This document shows, one piece after another, positions 1-9,166 of a stretch of DNA of 54,112 nucleotides (positions are counted from its first letter, which is position 1; each line of letters begins with the position of its first letter). A program made the position numbers and the translations under genes. Origin of the DNA: Myxococcales bacterium (GTDB lineage: Bacteria > Myxococcota_A > Polyangia > GCA-2747355); NCBI GenBank assembly GCA_020431405.1, contig JAGQIK010000307.1, positions 1 through 54,112 on the forward strand. The letters run 5' to 3'. The notes under the pieces are model-generated. The model ran no database searches, was not told the origin of the DNA, and saw nothing but the letters and a program-made list of their open reading frames with translations.

Positions 1-523
1 GTCCACAACCTATGCGCAACACGTTTCCGACGCCCTGTCGATCCCCCTCGTCAGGTGATCGAAATGACCGGCAAATCTCGCCGCACCGACCGGCACCACG
101 CGTTCGCGACACCACGTGAACGGTTACTCGGGACGCGATCTTTCCCTTCCAGGCCCACCGATGCTTGCACGCTGGGCATTCAGCCGTCCCCGTCTCTGTG
201 ACCATGTTTCCCTCCGATGACGGAAGTGTCTCACGAGCGCTGTTTCGCCGAAAGCAGCGACTTGCTTGCTTTGCCGGTGTCCACGTGCGCCCATGGCTGC
301 CCGTGGTGCGTATCGTCCGCGCTGGAGGCGCGATGACCTCGACGACTGGTGTCGAGACGCTGCTGAATTCGGGCCGGGTCAGGCCGTGACGGTGCGGTCG
401 CAACACGACGACACGCCCGTCGCTCTGGCGGCTGGGCGGCGGGCGAGGCGCTCAGGGCGCCGAGGTAAATAGCGCCAATCGATCGGCAACTGCGCTGCCT
501 GCGTTTCGCGTAAACTCTCCGAT
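1..523. other. Left-edge stretch without a supported gene
   Basis: Short open frames exist here on both strands, but none has a convincing start, ribosome-binding site or protein-like composition. I looked for a second copy of part of the tRNA-Leu found at 9082 (an expected left attachment site) and did not see one. The stretch may belong to the integrative element or to flanking DNA. Confidence 0.4.
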
Positions 524-1276
524 ATGCCGACAGCCAAGCAAGTCGCCGACGCTATGAACGGGCTGGCGGGAGCCATCAGAGCCCTGGACAGCCTAGTGTT
601 GGGCGGATGGATCGCAGGAGTGCTGATTCTCGTCGCCCTCGTAGTCATTGTCATCGCGACGCTTCGCGGGCTGAAGCGGCTTGCCGTTCTTCAGGACGAG
701 GCCACCAAGGCGGCAAAGTCTGCGTCCGATGAACACAAGGCAGTCGTGAACTCGCTGAAGGTGTTGAACGAACAACAGCAATCGGCTCACGGTCAACAGC
801 TCAAGCACATGATTGACGTGGCGGAGCTCGTCAGCTCCCCCAACCTAAAGGCGACGATTGAGTTGGAGCGTGAGGAATTTGAGCGCGTGGCTGCGAAGCT
901 CGGTGAGCTAAAGAAGAAGCAAGGTCAAGTTGAAGCCGAGAATGAAAGGCTTCGAAAAGAAGCCGCCCGTCTTACGAAGGAAATGAACGACGTCGCTGCC
1001 GAGGCAGAGCGAGCTGTCAAAGAGGGACGCTCGGCTGAGGCCACGTCGGCGTTGGGGCGATTCACGACGCTGTCGTCAAACTTCGACGATCTTCTCGACG
1101 GCTACAACGAGAACGCAGCGTCCGGGGGCAGGGTCGTAGGTCAGTACATCGATCTCGCCTCTGAGCGACCTTCCGTGTTTGTGCTGCCCCTCGTCGACGA
1201 GTCCAAACCCATTCGAGGTCAGGTGCGTAGGCTGTTCGTCAAAGAGCAAGAAGACAAACCAGACGGTGACAAGTAG
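524..1276 (+). CDS. Membrane-anchored coiled-coil protein of unknown function
   Basis: A 250-residue protein. A single hydrophobic segment at about residues 28-47 is followed by basic residues, giving a likely N-terminal membrane anchor with a cytoplasmic body. Residues 112-165 are rich in E, K and R with heptad-like spacing, typical of a coiled coil. The C-terminus is charged. The arrangement (short N-terminus, one helix, long coiled coil) resembles phage or element accessory proteins and RmuC-like scaffolds, but I see no RmuC signature and assign no function. It converges with the lipoprotein gene at 1387-2127. Whether it belongs to the integrative element cannot be decided because the left boundary is not visible. 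Confidence 0.7.
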   Translation: MPTAKQVADAMNGLAGAIRALDSLVLGGWIAGVLILVALVVIVIATLRGLKRLAVLQDEATKAAKSASDEHKAVVNSLKVLNEQQQSAHGQQLKHMIDVAELVSSPNLKATIELEREEFERVAAKLGELKKKQGQVEAENERLRKEAARLTKEMNDVAAEAERAVKEGRSAEATSALGRFTTLSSNFDDLLDGYNENAASGGRVVGQYIDLASERPSVFVLPLVDESKPIRGQVRRLFVKEQEDKPDGDK

Positions 1277-1386
1277 CGCGAGTTACGCGCAACTTCCTCG
1301 CCGCAGAACCGACAACAGCGGCATGACGAGAGCAAGCTTCTGGATCGTGCTCGTGCTTGGCGTGGTGCGGAGGCGCTGCGCTACGG

Positions 1387-2127
1387 CTAGCGCGTCTCGA
1401 GGTTCGGCGGGTACACGAGCGGGTAGCCATTCGCATCGGGGCCGGGGCACTGCGAGGGCGCGATCGTCTCGCCGTCGGACGTGGTGACGCTCTTGGCCAG
1501 CATCCGCGTGCACAGGTGCGCTGTGATCTTCGACGTCGTCGGGTCTGCCCCATCGATGCCCACGAGCCAGCAGTTGAGGCCAGCAAAGCCCGGCGGCAAG
1601 TCCTTCACCGCGTTCGAACAGTCGGCTTTGACGTAGCGCCAGGTCGTGGTCTCGCCGCCGCTCGGGCCCGGGCACCAGGCTGGCGGGTACACGTCGTCGT
1701 GCTGCATCGTGAGGGTGAAGTCCGAGGCGTTGCCGCTCGCCGCCTTGATGTCCCAGACCTTCTGACACCATCCGTTGTACTTCGCAGGGTCAGCAGACAG
1801 CCCCTGCCAGTACTGGTACACCGCAGGCTTCGCGGCGTGCTGGATGTGTTGCAGGGCCGCGCATCCGGGCGTGTCGGCGTCGCAGCGAACGTAGTAGCGA
1901 CCAATCATGTCCGCCACTGCGAGCGTGACGTCGCGGAAGTCCGGAATCAGGCACTCGCAGTTCTCAGCCCACTTGCGGCCGGCGCAACGGAGCAGTCCGG
2001 GGCTGTCATCCGCCGCGCACGTGCAGCCGACCGGAGCGTCGCGCTGGATGTCGCAGGGATCGCCTGGGCCGGGCGTCGAGTTGCAGGAGATCGCGAGCAG
2101 TGCAGCGAAGGCGAGAAATGCGCGCAT
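1387..2127 (-). CDS. Cys-rich putative lipoprotein
   Basis: A 246-residue protein with a short signal sequence ending in a lipobox-like A-I-S-C (Cys15), so it is probably lipidated and exported. The mature part has about a dozen cysteines, with a dense cluster in the first 50 residues and a Trp/Tyr-rich middle. I recognise no catalytic motif. The many cysteines suggest disulfide stabilisation outside the cytoplasm. It could be element cargo or a chromosomal gene at the element's left side. Confidence 0.65.
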   Translation of the reverse strand: MRAFLAFAALLAISCNSTPGPGDPCDIQRDAPVGCTCAADDSPGLLRCAGRKWAENCECLIPDFRDVTLAVADMIGRYYVRCDADTPGCAALQHIQHAAKPAVYQYWQGLSADPAKYNGWCQKVWDIKAASGNASDFTLTMQHDDVYPPAWCPGPSGGETTTWRYVKADCSNAVKDLPPGFAGLNCWLVGIDGADPTTSKITAHLCTRMLAKSVTTSDGETIAPSQCPGPDANGYPLVYPPNLETR

Positions 2128-2157
2128 GCTGAAAGCGTAGCACGCGGGCCGGACGCG

Positions 2158-2340
2158 CTAGACGCTGTCGCGCTTGCGAACGGCAGCGACAAGCGCGACG
2201 CCGGGGTCAGCGTCGGTCCCGATGTCGACGGGGCCGCGGGGATAGCTGAGGAAAACACGCCAGCCGTGCTCGCTGCAGCCGATGACCGCGTCGGGCTCGC
2301 CGAGCTCGTTGAGCAGCTCTCGAAGGCGGCGCGCGTGCAC
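2158..2340 (-). CDS. Small hypothetical protein
   Basis: A 60-residue frame starting with GTG. The product (an N-terminal basic helix followed by a G/S-H-G-W core) has ordinary protein composition, unlike the Arg/Ala-rich shadow frames around it. An in-frame stop lies about 85 bases upstream, so the GTG at 2340 is the only sensible start. It sits head-to-tail with 2480-3175, separated by 139 bases. No family recognised. Confidence 0.45.
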   Translation of the reverse strand: MHARRLRELLNELGEPDAVIGCSEHGWRVFLSYPRGPVDIGTDADPGVALVAAVRKRDSV

Positions 2341-2479
2341 GCGGAGGCGCGCGGCAGTGATCGCCGGCGGGTGGTGGCACGTGTCGGGCGACGGCGGCGG
2401 CGTGGAAGCTACGCCAGCGAATCATCGCGCTCGAGAAGGGGCTGAAAGCGAAGTCGCCGGCGCCCCGCAAGCCTACCAA

Positions 2480-3175
2480 CTAGCGCAGGAGTCGGCCGAG
2501 TTCGCGCCGGAAGGCGTCGGCGTCTCGTCGTGCTGAGGTTGCAGCAAGCGGACACGGAACGTCGAGCCAGTCGGTGGGTGCTGACGCTACCAATCTCGCC
2601 AAGTGGCCGTTGTTCATTCCTTCGGCTTCGAGAGCATATCGGAGATGGCGCAGGCGCTGCGGGTCTCCCCTCGGAATGTTGCCCGCGCCGTGTGTGAGCG
2701 CCGCGATGCAATCGTCGAGTTGCAGGACCATGATGACGTCGACGCTCGCTAGCCAGTGGTCTCGAGCTGTTTCGAGGTGAGCGCGAGCCTTTCGTAGCTC
2801 ATCGCGGGCAGCCGCCTGCGCCTCGCGATGTCGTCTTGGCGTGGTGTCTCCCGAGAACTGCGGAATCTCGCGCTCAAACTCCACAAGCGCGTACCAAAGT
2901 TCCGCGCTCGCACGAGCGTGCACCTGCCACGGCGTGGCCGCTGATACCTCGCCGAGTTCGTACAGCGTGAGCTCGCGCCGCTGGGAGACTTTCGCGATGG
3001 CGCGGACTGCGGCGTGCCACAGGGGGCTGGCGTCGATGGCGGGCCGTCCGCCGAGCCCGAGCATCGCCATGGTGGCCGCGAGTTGCCGGCCGCGTAGCCT
3101 GTCCACCGTCGCATCAATAGGGGGGCGCTCAGAGGCCAAATGACGCGATGGCTGGGCGGGTGAGCCACGTGGCAT
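2480..3175 (-). CDS. Hypothetical element protein, divergent from the HTH gene
   Basis: A 231-residue, Ala/Arg-rich, mostly helical soluble protein without a signal peptide. The frame stays open to 3559, but the upstream part lies antisense to the HTH gene at 3185-3397, so I place the start at the ATG at 3175. This leaves only 9 bases between its start codon and that of the HTH gene, so the two genes must use overlapping control regions. No domain recognised. Position suggests an early or regulatory gene of the element. Confidence 0.55.
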   Translation of the reverse strand: MPRGSPAQPSRHLASERPPIDATVDRLRGRQLAATMAMLGLGGRPAIDASPLWHAAVRAIAKVSQRRELTLYELGEVSAATPWQVHARASAELWYALVEFEREIPQFSGDTTPRRHREAQAAARDELRKARAHLETARDHWLASVDVIMVLQLDDCIAALTHGAGNIPRGDPQRLRHLRYALEAEGMNNGHLARLVASAPTDWLDVPCPLAATSARRDADAFRRELGRLLR

Positions 3176-3184
3176 TTGTTCACT

Positions 3185-3397
3185 ATGCCAGACACCAACG
3201 AACAGAACAGCGCAAACGAGCACATCTCGCGCGTCGCGTTTTCCCTCGAAGAGGTCGGCGCGATGGTCGGCGTCCACCCGCGCACGGTTCGCCGGTGGGC
3301 TGAGCGTGGCGTCATCCGGATGGTTCGCCTTGGTGGTCGCCTTGTCGTGCCCGCGTCCGAGCTTGACCGCGTCCTGAGCCAAGGCGCCGACGCCTAG
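3185..3397 (+). CDS. Small MerR/excisionase-type helix-turn-helix protein
   Basis: A 70-residue protein whose residues 18-65 form a classic HTH_17/MerR-like unit: a 'FSLEEVGAMVGVHPRTVRRW' helix-turn-helix, then a beta hairpin wing ('GVIRMVRLGGRLVV') and a closing helix. Such proteins act as excisionases or as regulators of integrase and replication genes in mobile elements. A TTG at 3176 would add three residues; the ATG at 3185 is preferred. It lies 63 bases upstream of the primase gene and divergent from 2480-3175. It is the first of two HTH proteins in the element (the other ends at 7616). Confidence 0.75.
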   Translation: MPDTNEQNSANEHISRVAFSLEEVGAMVGVHPRTVRRWAERGVIRMVRLGGRLVVPASELDRVLSQGADA

Positions 3398-3460
3398 AAA
3401 GACGAACGCCGTCGCGCTCGGGCTGTGCAGGCATGAGCGGACGGCGTCGTGAGGTTCTAA

Positions 3461-5722
3461 ATGGATCTTAGCACCACCGTCCGGTTTCTTGCGGCACTCG
3501 CCGCCACCGATCCCGACGTCGAGCGCTGGACGTTCCAAGCGTTCGACGACAACAAGCATCGCGACGACAAGCGGCTAGCCGGCCACCGGACGGGCGAGGT
3601 CGCTGAGTGGCGTCCGTGGCTCGAGGCGAAGCAGGGCGAAGGCTGCGGCGTGTTCGTCACCGTCAACCGCACGGACGGCGCGGGACGCAAAGCAGAGAAC
3701 GTCGAGCGGGTACGCGCGCTGTTCGTCGACATCGATCAGGCCGAGCTGCCCGAGGACCATCCGTTGCCGCCGTCGATCGTGGTGCAGAGCGGCCGCGGCT
3801 ACCACGCGTATTGGCTCGCGGTGGACGTGCCGCTAGAGCGCTTCACCGAGCTGCAGAAGCGACTGATCCACCACTACCGCGATGCCGGCGCCGACCCCAT
3901 GCCGCACGACCTGCCGCGCGTGATGCGGCTGCCTGGGTTCGCGCACCAGAAAGACCCGGCCAATCCGCGCGTCGTCGAGCTCGTTGAGGCGCAATCGGAG
4001 CGTCAGTACACGTTGGCGCAGTTCGACGCCGCCCTGCCGAAGCTGCCGAAGAAGAAGATCGCGAGCAGCGGGGTCAAGACGTCGGCGCCCGACGTCGTGG
4101 AGCGCGCGCGCAAGTACATTGCGCGTTGCCCCAGCGCCGTTTCCGGACAAGGCGGCCATCAACAAACTTTCCTTGTCGCACTTCATCTCGCACGTGGCTT
4201 CGACCTCAGCGACTCCGACGCGTGGGATTTGCTCGTCGAATACAACCGGCGCTGCGAGCCTGAGTGGTCGGAGCGAGAGCTGCGGCACAAGCTCGAGAGC
4301 GCGCAGAACGCCGACGCCGAGCGCGGCTACCTGCTAGACGACGAGGACGCCGAAAAATCGTCACCATCTTCTTCTTCAAGAAAAAGTGACGCGCCCGACA
4401 AGGCGCTCGGCAAGCCCAAGATCAGCCCCGCCAAGATCGCACGGCGCTTCGCCAAGCAGCACCGCGTCATCGGCATCTACGGCGGGCTCTACATCTACCG
4501 CGACGGCGTCTATCAGCGCGACGAGGACGAGTTGTTTGTGCGACGCTGGGTGCTGCGAGACCTCGGCGACGACGGCCTCAAGCGTCACTGCGACGAAGTG
4601 GTGCATGCGCTGCGCACCGAGCACGCCAAGGCGCCCCGCGACCTCGACGACGGCGCGCGCCTGATCAACGTCAGCAACGGCTTGCTGGATTGGCGCACGG
4701 GCGAGATCAGGCCGCACACGCCCAAGGTGCTGTCGATCATTCAGCTGCCGACCGCCTGGGACGCACAGGCCCAGCACGCGCGCGCCGACCGCTTCCTCGA
4801 CGAGGTGCTGCCCGACGCGGAGACACGCGAGCTCGTCGAGGAGTTTTTCGGCTACTGCCTGCATCCGCGCTGCAGCTACCAGAAGGCGCTGATGATGACG
4901 GGCGAGGGGGGCAACGGGAAGTCCGTGGCGATCGACGCGTGGCGCGCCACGCTCGGCGCACACAACGTCTCGGCCGTCTCGCTGCAGCGGCTAGGCGAGC
5001 GCTTCCAAGCGCTGCCGCTCGTCGGAGCGCTTGCGAACGTCTACCCCGACCTGCCCCGCGCCGCGCTGCGCGAGACGGACGTGTTCAAAGCGCTCGTCAC
5101 GGGCGACGCCATCATGCTCGAGCCGAAGTTCAAGGCGCAGTTCTCCTACGTCAACCGGGCGAAGTTGATCTTCTCCGCGAACGAGCTGCCCGGCTCTGCC
5201 GACCGCACCGACGGCTTCTTTCGGCGCTGGGTGGTCGTGCCCTTCCCGCATTCGTTCAAGGGGGACAAGGCCGATCCCGACCTCGAGGCGAAGTTGACCA
5301 CGCCGGCCGCGCGTAGCTACTGGCTGCGCCTGGCGGTCGAGGGACTACGGCGCCTGGTGAAGCGGGGCCGCTTCGTCGAAACGGAGCAGACGCGCCTGGC
5401 GATCGAGGACTACCGCCGCAGCGCCGACGACATCTACGCGTTCTGGCGCGAGACCTACCAGGAGTCGCCGGGCGACCACGTGATCAAGCAGGACGCCTAC
5501 AACCGCTACCAGCGCTGGTGCGAGGCCGCGGGAGCCAAGGCGCAAGCTGCGTCGGTGTTCTTCAGCCGCGTCAAGGCGATGGGCGTCAAGAGCTTCCGCC
5601 CGCGCGTCGCCGGCGAGCGACCGCCAGCGCTGAAAGACGTCGCGTTGGCCGCTGAAGTGGTCAACCCGGTCAACCCAAAACCCTATTTATCTATTAATCG
5701 CGCGAACGGAAAAAGTCAGTGA
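3461..5722 (+). CDS. Element primase-helicase (RepB-like primase plus D5/P4 helicase)
   Basis: A 753-residue replication protein. Residues about 1-180 resemble the archaeo-eukaryotic primase fold used by mobile plasmids: 'LFVDID' (88-92) supplies the metal-binding D-x-D, 'SGRGYHAYW' (110-118) the glycine/histidine loop, and 'RVMRLPGFAHQKDP' (153-166) the third motif. Residues 210-290 match a PriCT-type linker. Residues 320-690 form a D5_N/SF3-like helicase with Walker A GEGGNGKS (481-488) and a sensor region 'LIFSANELPG'. Such fusions prime and unwind the origin of P4-like satellites and integrative elements. The 3' end of the gene runs into the repeats of the origin-like region. The start ATG is taken as 3461. 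Confidence 0.88.
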   Translation: MDLSTTVRFLAALAATDPDVERWTFQAFDDNKHRDDKRLAGHRTGEVAEWRPWLEAKQGEGCGVFVTVNRTDGAGRKAENVERVRALFVDIDQAELPEDHPLPPSIVVQSGRGYHAYWLAVDVPLERFTELQKRLIHHYRDAGADPMPHDLPRVMRLPGFAHQKDPANPRVVELVEAQSERQYTLAQFDAALPKLPKKKIASSGVKTSAPDVVERARKYIARCPSAVSGQGGHQQTFLVALHLARGFDLSDSDAWDLLVEYNRRCEPEWSERELRHKLESAQNADAERGYLLDDEDAEKSSPSSSSRKSDAPDKALGKPKISPAKIARRFAKQHRVIGIYGGLYIYRDGVYQRDEDELFVRRWVLRDLGDDGLKRHCDEVVHALRTEHAKAPRDLDDGARLINVSNGLLDWRTGEIRPHTPKVLSIIQLPTAWDAQAQHARADRFLDEVLPDAETRELVEEFFGYCLHPRCSYQKALMMTGEGGNGKSVAIDAWRATLGAHNVSAVSLQRLGERFQALPLVGALANVYPDLPRAALRETDVFKALVTGDAIMLEPKFKAQFSYVNRAKLIFSANELPGSADRTDGFFRRWVVVPFPHSFKGDKADPDLEAKLTTPAARSYWLRLAVEGLRRLVKRGRFVETEQTRLAIEDYRRSADDIYAFWRETYQESPGDHVIKQDAYNRYQRWCEAAGAKAQAASVFFSRVKAMGVKSFRPRVAGERPPALKDVALAAEVVNPVNPKPYLSINRANGKSQ

Positions 5723-5779
5723 TTACAAGAAAAGATAAATACGCGGTCACCCTGACCACCCTGACCACCCTGACCACCG
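5658..5779. other. Putative element replication origin: AT-rich core flanked by iteron-like repeats
   Basis: On the left (5658-5676) GGTCAACCC occurs twice in tandem, inside the 3' end of the primase gene. The right end (about 5739-5779) has GGTCACCC followed by three tandem copies of TGACCACCC or a near copy. Read on the other strand, the right block becomes GTGGTCAGGG units, so the two blocks face each other around a GTGGTCA core. Between them is a markedly AT-rich stretch (about 5677-5738) in an otherwise very GC-rich element. Iterons beside an AT-rich segment next to a primase-helicase gene are the expected layout of a replication origin. The function is inferred. Confidence 0.5.
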
Positions 5780-5834
5780 ACTGCCCATCATGCGCTGGCC
5801 TACAACGCGCCGACGCAGCGGGGAGGAGTGCCCG

Positions 5835-6155
5835 ATGATCGACCCCAGGCTCATAGTCACAGTCCCCGGCGGCGGCGAAGTTGTTGATGTCGCCTTCGAC
5901 GAGAACATGACGGCGTATGTGACACGACACGCCATCGCCGCCTGGCAGGTGTTCACGGTCGAAGGCAACGCGACGCCCTACGCCGAGCCTGTCTGTTGCT
6001 CGAGCTACGTCGAGCTCGGCGGCGGCACTCGCGGCGGTGAGTACCGCGGCATCGTGCGGCCCGATGGCGGCGTCACCGTCGAGGCCCGCGCTACGCCACC
6101 CCCATCGGCTGAGACGACGTCGTCCCCGACCCTCGTCGACGAGGTGCGGCCGTGA
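5835..6155 (+). CDS. Hypothetical element protein
   Basis: A 106-residue acidic protein. The ATG at 5835 is preceded by GGGAGGAG at a good distance, so it is preferred over an in-frame ATG at 5790. The sequence is beta-rich ('RLIVTVPGGGEVVDVAFDE') with a Cys-Cys pair in the middle and a Pro/Thr-rich tail. No family recognised. Its stop codon overlaps the GTG start of the next gene (GTGA at 6152-6155), which implies translational coupling in the operon that runs to 7616. Confidence 0.65.
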   Translation: MIDPRLIVTVPGGGEVVDVAFDENMTAYVTRHAIAAWQVFTVEGNATPYAEPVCCSSYVELGGGTRGGEYRGIVRPDGGVTVEARATPPPSAETTSSPTLVDEVRP

Positions 6156-7024
6156 AACGCGCCTACGTCGACTACAACCCGCGGCAGGCGACGCGCAAGC
6201 TGATCGCCACCTGCAACAGCATCATCGCGGAGTACGACGGCCAGCCGATGACGCTGCGCCAGCTGCACTACCAGCTGGTGTCGCGCGGGGTGCAGCCCAA
6301 CACGCAGCGCGCCTACAAGCGCCTGAGCTCGCATCTGTCGAAGGCCCGTATGGGTGGCCTCGTCGACTGGGACGCGATCATTGACCGGCTGCGCGTTGTT
6401 CGGGCTAGGCCGCACTTTGACTCGCCGGCGGACGCGGTGCAGGAGGTGGCGCGCCAGTACGCCATCGACACGTGGGCTGACCAGCCGTACCGCGTCGAAG
6501 TCTGGATCGAGAAAGACGCCCTGATCGGCGTGCTCGAGGACTTCTGCGAGCAGCACGACGTGCCGCTGTTCGCCGCGCGCGGCAACGGCTCGACGACCTG
6601 CCTGCAAGAAGCCGCCGAGCTGCGCATAAAGGCGCGCGAGGCGCGAGGCCAGCGCACGGTGATCGCGCTGATGACCGACCACGATCCCACCGGGCTGTGC
6701 ATCGGCGAGGCCGCGCGCGACGCGCTCGAGGCGATGGGCGCCCGGCCGATCGTCTGCCGCGTCGCCCTGACGCGCGAGCAGGCCGAAGCCCGCGGCGTGC
6801 CGCCCATCCCGACGAAGAAGAAGGACTCGCGCTCGCCGGCCTACATCGCACAGCACGGCGACAGGTGCTGGGAGCTCGACTGCCTCAGCCCGCTCGAGTT
6901 GCAGGGGGAGGTGCTGGCCGTGATCGAACGCTACCGCGAGGACGAGCGCTGGCTTGCGGCGCTTGGTCGCGAACAAGAACAGCGCGAGCAACTGGCGCGC
7001 ATCGCCGCCGGGGTACAGTCGTGA
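6152..7024 (+). CDS. Standalone Topo VI-A/Spo11-like Toprim protein (Mini-A-like)
   Basis: A 290-residue protein. Residues 30-85 resemble the winged-helix domain of topoisomerase VI subunit A and Spo11: 'TLRQLHY' (34-40) aligns with the R-D-[IL]-[FY]-Y motif whose last Tyr attacks DNA, making Tyr40 the candidate nucleophile. A Toprim domain follows: 'VEVWIEKD' carries the acidic Glu120, and 'TDHDPTG' carries the D-x-D pair Asp176/Asp178. Family knowledge says these residues bind the metal needed for cleavage and rejoining. No B subunit (GHKL ATPase) is encoded nearby, matching the orphan Mini-A proteins described from mobile elements. Its start and stop overlap both neighbours by 4 bases. Confidence 0.7.
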   Translation: MKRAYVDYNPRQATRKLIATCNSIIAEYDGQPMTLRQLHYQLVSRGVQPNTQRAYKRLSSHLSKARMGGLVDWDAIIDRLRVVRARPHFDSPADAVQEVARQYAIDTWADQPYRVEVWIEKDALIGVLEDFCEQHDVPLFAARGNGSTTCLQEAAELRIKAREARGQRTVIALMTDHDPTGLCIGEAARDALEAMGARPIVCRVALTREQAEARGVPPIPTKKKDSRSPAYIAQHGDRCWELDCLSPLELQGEVLAVIERYREDERWLAALGREQEQREQLARIAAGVQS

Positions 7025-7302
7025 GGCCCAAGCGCCGACCGCGGGGCCGCCCGCTGCCGATGCCCGGACGCAGGGTAGCCGCCGATCGCGAGCGTGCTGG
7101 CGCCGCTGGCCGCGCTGCCGGTGTCGCCGACGAGGTGCGCCGATGCCTTGCCGATGGCAACCACGAGCGCGCGCGCGAGGCTCTGTCCGAACTCCTCAGC
7201 ATCGCCGCGCCCTACGTCATGACGACGAAACTCGACGCGTGGCTCGAGGCGCTGAACATCTCACCCGCCAAGGCACGCCAGCTGCTGCGAGAGGCCCGCT
7301 GA
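7021..7302 (+). CDS. Small basic hypothetical protein
   Basis: A 93-residue protein starting with GTG in the GTGA overlap with the preceding stop. The N-terminal 25 residues are Arg/Pro-rich (possible nucleic-acid contact). The rest is helical with a C-terminal 'ALNISPAKARQLLREAR' that looks like a degenerate helix-turn-helix or ribosome-hopping-type helix pair. Its stop (TGA) overlaps the next start in TGATG. No family recognised. Operon position between the Toprim protein and the HTH protein suggests an accessory role in replication or excision. Confidence 0.6.
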   Translation: MRPKRRPRGRPLPMPGRRVAADRERAGAAGRAAGVADEVRRCLADGNHERAREALSELLSIAAPYVMTTKLDAWLEALNISPAKARQLLREAR

Positions 7303-7616
7303 TGAAGTCCGACATCCTGGAGGCGCTCCGCGCTGCGGCAGCGGCACAGCGAGCCACAGCGGCCGCGCTCGAGGCCATCGCGGCGGCAGCCGAACAGGCG
7401 CCCGACGTCGAGCCGGCCATCACAGTCGCGTCCGCCGGCGAGCTGCTCGACGTGCGCCATGCCGCGGAGCGTCTCGGCATGTCCGTCTCGTGGGTGTACC
7501 GCCAGGTGGAGTCCGGGCGACTGTCGTGCGTGCGCATCGGCAACCGCGTGCGTTTCCGCGTGGCTGACCTCGAGGTGTTCGTCGCAGAGCGCAGCGCCGG
7601 CGGTGACGCGTGCTAG
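7302..7616 (+). CDS. AlpA/Xis-like excisionase with N-terminal helical extension
   Basis: A 104-residue protein. Residues 1-40 are an Ala-rich helix, possibly for dimerisation. Residues 47-98 form an HTH_17 excisionase-type domain ('LDVRHAAERLGMSVSWVYRQ' followed by 'GRLSCVRIGNRVRFRVADLEVFV'). In integrative elements such proteins bend DNA for excision or activate the integrase gene. It is the last gene of the overlapping operon. Its TAG stop is embedded in a TGCTAGAAT extended -10-like sequence, and a structured intergenic region separates it from the integrase. Confidence 0.78.
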   Translation: MKSDILEALRAAAAAQRATAAALEAIAAAAEQAPDVEPAITVASAGELLDVRHAAERLGMSVSWVYRQVESGRLSCVRIGNRVRFRVADLEVFVAERSAGGDAC

Positions 7617-7619
7617 AAT
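7611..7619 (+). promoter_or_regulatory. Extended -10 promoter element ahead of the structured intergenic region
   Basis: The sequence TGCTAGAAT fits an extended -10 (TGn plus TAnAAT). No clear -35 is visible. A transcript from it would start near 7626, exactly where the first arm of the RNA-like structure begins. The element overlaps the stop codon of the upstream HTH gene. Confidence 0.4.
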
Positions 7620-7620
7620 C

Positions 7621-7783
7621 GTCGGTGCGAGACTCCAACGGCCGAAACGAAAGGCCCTCACCGACCAGCACGAACAACGCAAAGACGCGCTCATATGTCC
7701 CTCGCTGGGCCGCGCGAGCGGTAGGCCGGAGTCTCGCAAACCCGTCCCTAACCTTTCGTTCCCAGCGAGGGGCACTCTTGTGC
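7621..7783 (+). ncRNA. Structured intergenic RNA candidate between xis-like and int genes
   Basis: This 186-base gap has no credible gene but three long exact complementary pairs. TGCGAGACTCC (7626-7636) pairs with 7728-7738, AACGAAAGG (7646-7654) with 7752-7760, and CCCTCGCTGGG (7699-7709) with 7761-7771. Their order is A B C A' B' C', so all three cross and would form pseudoknots or alternative folds. Local hairpins also exist: GTCGGTG/CACCGAC (7621-7627/7659-7665), GGCC/GGCC around 7640-7656, and GCAC/GTGC at 7772-7783. The location between an AlpA-like gene and an integrase gene matches the published 'int-alpA' RNA class as I recall it. Whether it belongs to that class is untested. Confidence 0.55.
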
Positions 7784-7802
7784 GCGGGAAGGTGAGACTG
7801 CC

Positions 7803-9062
7803 GTGGGCAGCATCTACAACCGGGGCGGACCGACGCGCCCAAATGTTTGGATTCAGTACTACGTAGGCGGCAAGCGCCAGCGCGAGCCGATCGACAAAGC
7901 CCCCACCGGGCTGACGCGGTCGGAGGCGAACGCCCTCGAGAAGGACTACCGCCGCAAGGCCGCGCGGCGTCTCGCGGAGATCGAGCATGGGTTGACGGCG
8001 CCAGCACCCGCCGAGAGCGAGCAGCGCAGCGAGGACGAAGACCCGCTGTTCTGTGCCGCCGCGAAGACGTGGCTCAAACAGCGCAAGGCAGACGGCTACC
8101 GCGCGATGACCAGCACCACCGCGCACATCAACCGCCACCTGGTGCCCATGCTCGGCCAGCTGCGGATCAGCGAGGTGACCACCGGCAAGGTGCGCGAGCT
8201 CGTCGACGAGCGGCGACGCACGGCGAAGCTGTCGGGGGCGACGGTCAAGCGCGTGCTGATGACGCTGTCGCGGATGTACAACGACCTGCGAGAGCGCGAT
8301 CGGCCGTGGCTGCTCAACCCCGTGGGCGCGCTGAGCAAGGCCACGCGCAAGAAGCTGCGCAGCAAGCACGACCCCAAGCGCACGCCTTTCGTCAGGACCA
8401 AGTCCTGCATCGCCGCCGTCTACAACGCGCTGCCGGAGTATCTGCAGCCCGCGTACGCGGTGGGTGTCTTCGCTGGGCTTCGCACCAACGAAGTGCTCGC
8501 CCTGCGCTGGGCCGACATCGATCTCGACCGGCGCACGATCACGGTGCAGCGGCAGAAGGTGCAGGGCAAGCGAGAGACGGGCCCGCTGAAGAACAGCAAG
8601 ACGCGCGTGGTGCCGATCAACGACACGCTGCTCGCCGTGCTCAAGCCCTGCAAGCTCGCCGGCTGCGACGGCCTGTGCTTCCCTTCACGACGCACCGGCG
8701 ACCTCATGTACGACGACACGCCCCACGACGCGCTACAGCGAGTGCTCGCCAAGCTGCCGAAGGTGCTGGCGCGCGCGTTGGAGCCTGCGCCGGCCGGCGA
8801 GTCGCTGACCTGGTATCGCGCCACCCGCCACACCTTCGCCAGCCACTGGGTGATGGACGGCGGCAGCATCGAGAAGCTGTGCGAGATACTCGGTCACTGC
8901 TCAGTGGTGGTGACGGAGCGCTACGCGCACCTGCGGCCTGATGCGTTCGGCGCCGCGGACTACGCGAAGGCGTGCGTTGACCTGACTGTCGGTCGCGTCA
9001 TAGACCTCGACAGCCACAGGATAGCCACAGATGGAGGTGAGGCGGCGGCGGCGAGCCGCTAA
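7803..9062 (+). CDS. int: Tyrosine recombinase (element integrase)
   Basis: A 419-residue site-specific integrase. Residues about 80-180 form the SAM-like core-binding domain. The catalytic domain follows, with Arg227 in 'FAGLRTNEVLALRW', a hairpin lysine (Lys263 or Lys266), Arg342-His343 in 'YRATRHTFASH', His365 in 'EILGHCS', and the Tyr374 nucleophile in 'VVTERYAHL'. The usual HxxR box reads R-A-T-R, so the first His is replaced by Arg. The GTG start at 7803 has a GGAAGG upstream. The gene ends 19 bases before tRNA-Leu, the presumed target. Unusually, it adjoins the 5' end of the tRNA. Confidence 0.92.
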   Translation: MGSIYNRGGPTRPNVWIQYYVGGKRQREPIDKAPTGLTRSEANALEKDYRRKAARRLAEIEHGLTAPAPAESEQRSEDEDPLFCAAAKTWLKQRKADGYRAMTSTTAHINRHLVPMLGQLRISEVTTGKVRELVDERRRTAKLSGATVKRVLMTLSRMYNDLRERDRPWLLNPVGALSKATRKKLRSKHDPKRTPFVRTKSCIAAVYNALPEYLQPAYAVGVFAGLRTNEVLALRWADIDLDRRTITVQRQKVQGKRETGPLKNSKTRVVPINDTLLAVLKPCKLAGCDGLCFPSRRTGDLMYDDTPHDALQRVLAKLPKVLARALEPAPAGESLTWYRATRHTFASHWVMDGGSIEKLCEILGHCSVVVTERYAHLRPDAFGAADYAKACVDLTVGRVIDLDSHRIATDGGEAAAASR

Positions 9063-9081
9063 CTAGCGAGAACAGAAGAAC

Positions 9082-9166
9082 GCCCGGGTGGTGGAATTGG
9101 TAGACACAGGGGACTTAAAATCCCCAGGCTCCTAGAGCTTTGCGGGTTCGACTCCCGCCCCGGGCA
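9082..9166 (+). tRNA. tRNA-Leu (anticodon UAA), likely integration target
   Basis: An 85-base class II tRNA. The acceptor stem is GCCCGGG/CCCGGGC with discriminator A at 9166 and no encoded CCA. The anticodon stem GGGGA/TCCCC encloses loop CTTAAAA with anticodon TAA at 9116-9118. A variable arm follows, then the T arm with GTTCGA. The gene is intact. Because the integrase gene directly precedes it, any promoter must lie inside the integrase 3' end; TTGACC (8977) with an 18-base spacer to TAGACC (9001) is a weak candidate. Confidence 0.95.

Follow-up and report, generated by a model that had tools for sequence, protein, structure and literature searches.

Does the short gap between an excisionase-like gene and the tyrosine integrase gene (int) of this Myxococcales bacterium carry an RNA that acts on int? 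The window (54,112 nucleotides, the whole stretch of DNA analysed) is the entire contig C76 of an 11.2-Mb draft genome. The genes around the gap are as follows.

3176-3397, + strand, HTH gene
3461-5722, + strand, primase/helicase-like protein (DUF5906 and D5_N)
between the primase/helicase-like gene and the 290-aa gene, + strand, small genes
6152-7024, + strand, 290-aa protein
7302-7616, + strand, excisionase/AlpA-like HTH_17 gene, 104 aa, stop TAG at 7614-7616 (Pfam HTH_17, E 4.5e-13)
7788-7797, + strand, int ribosome-binding region, GGGAAGG and following bases (from sequence and prefix folding)
7803-9062, + strand, tyrosine integrase gene int, 419 aa, GTG start (Pfam Phage_integrase, E 1.7e-16)
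9082-9166, + strand, tRNA-Leu(UAA), about 20 bases past the end of int

The two Pfam matches agree with an earlier reading made from the sequence only, which had placed an AlpA-like gene upstream of the gap and an integrase gene downstream. The start of int was supported by the N-terminus of a related integrase (locus L003). Readthrough joining the HTH_17 gene to int was rejected: the frames agree, yet stops intervene and int has its own ribosome site. The gap is 186 nt long, against a much shorter one in several relatives that also have an HTH-int pair (for example, loci L005 and L036). This extra length is one of the grounds on which we tentatively favour the reading that the gap is a lineage-private, fold-switching 5' leader of the int mRNA.

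The complementary segments of the gap were recomputed and are listed below.

7626-7636, + strand, arm A, 11 nt, TGCGAGACTCC, at the predicted RNA 5' end, exact complement of 7728-7738
7646-7654, + strand, arm B, 9 nt, AACGAAAGG, exact complement of 7752-7760
7657-7662, + strand, CUCACC, six pairs (weak alone) with GGUGAG of the int ribosome site in the late predicted fold
7699-7709, + strand, arm C core, 11 nt exact, CCCTCGCTGGG, exact complement of 7761-7771
7696-7709, + strand, arm C extended, 14 pairs including one U-G, pairing with 7761-7774
7728-7738, + strand, arm A', exact complement of arm A
7752-7760, + strand, arm B', exact complement of arm B
7761-7774, + strand, arm C' (extended), contiguous with B'; 7761-7771 exact, 7761-7774 via U-G

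The complementarity of the three pairs (11, 9 and 11) was confirmed as perfect, as were their order A-B-C-A'-B'-C' and the contiguity of B' and C'. All three pairs cross one another within a span of 149 nt, and the arms and their partners are the sole complementary arms of at least 8 bases within 7611-7802. The C helix gains its three extra pairs, through the U-G, in RNA of the + strand only, which argues for a leader of int. The crossing topology had been thought possibly new; the ABCABC order is in fact already catalogued as the pseudotrefoil (class 1C), with 51 RNA sequences of mean length 74 nt (PMC3390330). The gap has the same order of three mutually crossing helices. It differs from the pseudotrefoil in being longer (149 nt against the mean of 74 nt), and joint formation of its three helices is putative.

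One promoter element was found directly ahead of arm A.

7611-7619, + strand, extended -10 TGCTAGAAT, overlapping the TAG stop of the HTH_17 gene; predicted start 7626-7627

A start 7 bases past this -10 would lie at the beginning of arm A, in line with the earlier proposal that a transcript begins there. Across the whole window and a further 257 kb sampled from this genome, both strands included, TGCTAGAAT is the sole TGNTANAAT. No recognisable -35 accompanies it; extended -10 promoters can do without a -35. A rare element that places +1 on arm A points to a dedicated leader. No terminator and no sigma-70-type promoter was recognised on either strand of 7300-7900, and this bears on an alternative in which a separate small RNA, from either strand, pairs in trans with the int leader in the style of the C4 or P4 CI RNA. 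The C4 antisense RNA of P1/P7 and the CI RNA of P4 are mobile-element regulatory RNAs with split complementary segments near a gene start. The gap likewise has split complementarity around a gene start on a mobile element; A and B lie upstream and A' and B' near the ribosome site, an arrangement of the C4 type, and the - strand of the gap folds comparably well. It differs from both RNAs in having no Rfam match, in that the downstream gene encodes an integrase and in showing no sign of a separate RNA. With neither promoter nor terminator recognised and no Rfam match, a small RNA acting in trans is very unlikely.

The frequency of such a triple by chance was estimated in three ways. None of 3000 dinucleotide shuffles of the gap contained even two arms of 11. 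A 5th-order Markov model, trained on 327 kb from this genome, produced 2 comparable triples in 56 Mb of simulated sequence, which corresponds to about 0.002 per 54-kb window and about 0.4 per 11.2-Mb genome. Real sequence totalling about 860 kb, of which 310,661 bases came from the same genome and 549,771 from other loci, contained no second such triple; looser triples turn up in other GC-rich parts of this genome. Taken with the exactness of the arms, the shuffles, the rate per window and the uniqueness in 860 kb argue for the leader, and the rate per genome argues against it. The triple is surprising for the window and very surprising for the gap itself, and whole-genome surveys would meet such triples by chance; the crossing-arm pattern is unusual, not overwhelming.

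Chance must accordingly be weighed as an explanation in its own right: a GC-rich gap with three complementary pairs was noticed post hoc among many possible patterns, and any fold of its RNA is functionless. The genome-wide expectation and the looser triples fit this explanation, as do the lack of conservation of the pattern and a folding z-score that is ordinary among segments of the window (both below). The empty shuffles and the low rate per window speak against it, and so does the position of the triple, which sits exactly in the short gap before int and begins at the predicted start of a rare extended -10. We place chance close behind the fold-switching leader. On another contig of the same genome (locus L113, 8357-9072), repetitive GGCCTCGGGCC tracts were seen together with looser crossing inverted repeats.

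All folding was computed without pseudoknots. For the RNA 7626-7830, two mutually exclusive folds close in predicted energy were obtained, one with arm C paired (-87.3 kcal/mol) and one with arm A paired (-84.2 kcal/mol). The suggestion that the crossing helices imply a switch between alternative folds thus has a counterpart in two strong, exclusive predicted structures. The energies of the helices alone were -20.2 (A), -10.5 (B) and -29.2 (C, 14 pairs). When prefixes of the growing RNA were folded, the probability of A/A' was 0.97 up to 7765, dipped to 0.62 at 7780 and was 0.88 at 7790; that of C/C' was 0.97 at 7795, as the int ribosome site emerges. In the late predicted fold CUCACC pairs with GGUGAG of that site. 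Two incompatible folds of similar energy, and a flip from A to C as the ribosome site emerges, favour a switching leader. Which helix forms first, and how exposure of the ribosome site changes, are both predictions only. The site is unpaired at 0.41 in one fold and 0.33 in the other, a difference so small that a regulatory effect of the fold change is not clear; the value for the start codon (0.36 to 1.00) depends strongly on the 3' end of the folded RNA. Both points count against the leader. So does its folding stability, which is ordinary for the genome: the pseudoknot-free fold of the gap has a z-score of -2.1 to -2.7, and 7 of 100 window segments fold equally well. Arms A and B might also combine in an H-type pseudoknot whose loops would measure 9 and 13 nt. 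A ribosome halted at the HTH_17 stop was considered as a trigger and dropped; in the model, blocking 7595-7631 stops A/A' pairing and leaves the final fold unchanged.

The fold-switching leader would work as follows. A dedicated promoter, the extended -10 at 7611-7619, would start the RNA at arm A, giving a leader-int transcript separate from the operon transcript for the excisionase-like protein. As the RNA elongates, A and A' would pair earliest. B/B' may add a pseudoknot to this early fold, or all three helices may join as a pseudotrefoil. Once the int ribosome site has been transcribed, the RNA would refold, with C paired to C' and a short segment paired to the ribosome site, and this fold would lower integrase translation. 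We infer that the leader regulates the integrase, which would then be made only briefly or under certain conditions. The hok mRNA of R1 has a metastable leader in which downstream sequence brings a later, more stable fold. The same replacement of an early fold by a stabler one is predicted for the gap; the gap differs from hok in lacking processing and an antisense RNA and in preceding a different gene, and its switch is a prediction only.

The position of the gap recalls a known RNA. The int-alpA RNA of Rfam, reportedly described by Weinberg and colleagues in 2017, is said to lie between an AlpA-like HTH gene and an integrase gene, and the gap shares that location. Of the earlier assignment to this class the location stands and membership does not. 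The covariance-model scan that the sequence-only reading had proposed was run (cmscan on the window and on 7400-8100, with the int-alpA model assumed to be in the set), and neither int-alpA nor another relevant Rfam family was matched at E up to 10; two matches at E 2.5-3.2 were frameshift elements, far under their gathering scores, and were set aside. The absence of an int-alpA match means that membership fails. The gap further differs from int-alpA RNA in having no homologues and in its crossing arms. That it belongs to int-alpA or to another known phage RNA, such as the C4 antisense RNA, is hardly tenable; its place between an AlpA-like gene and an integrase gene speaks for such a class, and no such family was found at the gathering threshold or at E up to 10. 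The int-alpA RNA is among the families annotated in another study (PMC12370729).

Relatives were sought with int, its 290-aa neighbour and the gap in GTDB genomes, viral contigs, phages and plasmids. Only integrase relatives were found, at about 37-46% identity, and none of them carries the gap. The 317 other genomes of the class and the plasmids yielded nothing homologous to the gap, and the viral contigs no exact copies of the arm sequences. A profile of the integrase family drew records from Myxococcota/Deltaproteobacteria MAGs. The crossing pattern was absent from about 100 related integrase loci (a count that includes places fetched twice); the best pattern score upstream of the fetched relatives was 26, against 31 here. 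With no homologous gap and no such pattern in related loci, covariation gives no support, and all three results count against the leader. The absence of the pattern argues weakly against a conserved RNA class, and as far as these comparisons go a widespread class is unlikely. The gaps of the related loci are not homologous to this one, so an RNA specific to this element is not refuted.

The arms might instead act in DNA, as inverted binding sites for the HTH protein or the integrase that control the int promoter or recombination. In favour of such sites, the gap adjoins the HTH gene and has the promoter bordering the arms. In sequence the three pairs are unlike one another, and with spacings of 51-97 bp they do not resemble one operator; the attachment core and paired repeats were found elsewhere, 1.3 kb from the gap. 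These repeats are listed here.

window 9081-9123, and 7361-7319 of contig C47 (locus L131; C47 copy on the - strand), 43-bp exact att repeat equal to the 5' half of tRNA-Leu(UAA)
window 9012-9030, and 7216-7198 of C47 (L131; C47 copy on the - strand), tandem repeats AGCCACAG-NAT-AGCCACAG

The 43-bp repeat has one further copy in the genome, that on C47, where the tRNA is broken off. This indicates that the element recombined in the anticodon region of the tRNA, with the tRNA 5' half, downstream of int, as its right end. The element would span window 1-9080 and at least about 7.3 kb of C47. The tandem repeats occur only twice in the genome, on both sides of the element; their distance from the core is about 50 bp for the pair in the 3' end of int and about 100 bp for the pair at the other end. 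They are likely candidates for integrase arm sites, and similar tandem repeats precede the tRNA in many integrase relatives. With core and arm-type repeats lying elsewhere and none within the gap, the gap was rejected as an attachment or arm site, and binding sites in DNA are an unlikely account of the arms.

The placement of int before a tRNA recurs in a clade of integrases from Myxococcota/Deltaproteobacteria MAGs, in which the integrase genes end just upstream of a tRNA 5' end on the same strand (L003, L006, L033-L036, L039, L041, L042, L063, L067, L074 and L078). The adjoining tRNAs are very diverse (Arg, Gly, Ser, His, Lys, Asn, Phe, Leu and Val). On contig C58 of genome G137, a partial int 3' end and the 5' half of tRNA-His are repeated about 97 kb apart (59968-60092 and 156715-156945; L036, L144 and L145). 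The second copy is perhaps the other end of the element or a remnant of an earlier related element.

One further repeated motif, promoter-like, was found in the end of int and upstream of the displaced tRNA half.

window 8977-9005 (3' end of the int coding sequence), and 7406-7378 of C47 (L131; C47 copy on the - strand), TTGACCT-N13-GTCATAGAC

With this identical spacing, the two sites are the sole exact copies in 11.2 Mb. On C47 the motif ends about 17 bases before the displaced tRNA half, where a tRNA promoter would be. The copy at the end of int may restore expression of tRNA-Leu(UAA) after integration. The TTGAC of this copy falls within the codons for a conserved Val-Asp-Leu of the integrase family, and the match may thus in part reflect selection at the protein level. 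In nearly all bacterial integrations the tRNA keeps its own promoter, and archaeal pTN3-like elements are an exception, the tRNA being expressed from the integrase promoter (PMC8371274, a review). As in pTN3-like integration, the target here is the 5' half of a tRNA and the restored tRNA needs element sequence for its promoter; the present element differs in being bacterial and in that the displaced promoter-like motif is also copied inside the 3' end of int. Since in many relatives int stops shortly before a same-strand tRNA, the clade seems to live by this exception.

Given the tRNA downstream, it could be of use to the element to combine a strong int promoter with silencing at translation, a link that we infer. 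A stronger form of the proposal, in which a true pseudotrefoil or switch uncouples int transcription from translation and keeps the promoter on for tRNA-Leu(UAA) with the integrase silent, is improbable; here the transcript would continue into this restored, single-copy tRNA gene. If real, the leader itself would be RNA-level control of a tyrosine integrase through a rarely seen crossing fold, on an element whose int directly precedes the restored host tRNA, and would explain how such elements keep the int promoter on without making integrase. The attachment site offers a concrete bacterial example of a tRNA gene cut off from its promoter by integration, with the promoter-like motif present in a further copy on the element.
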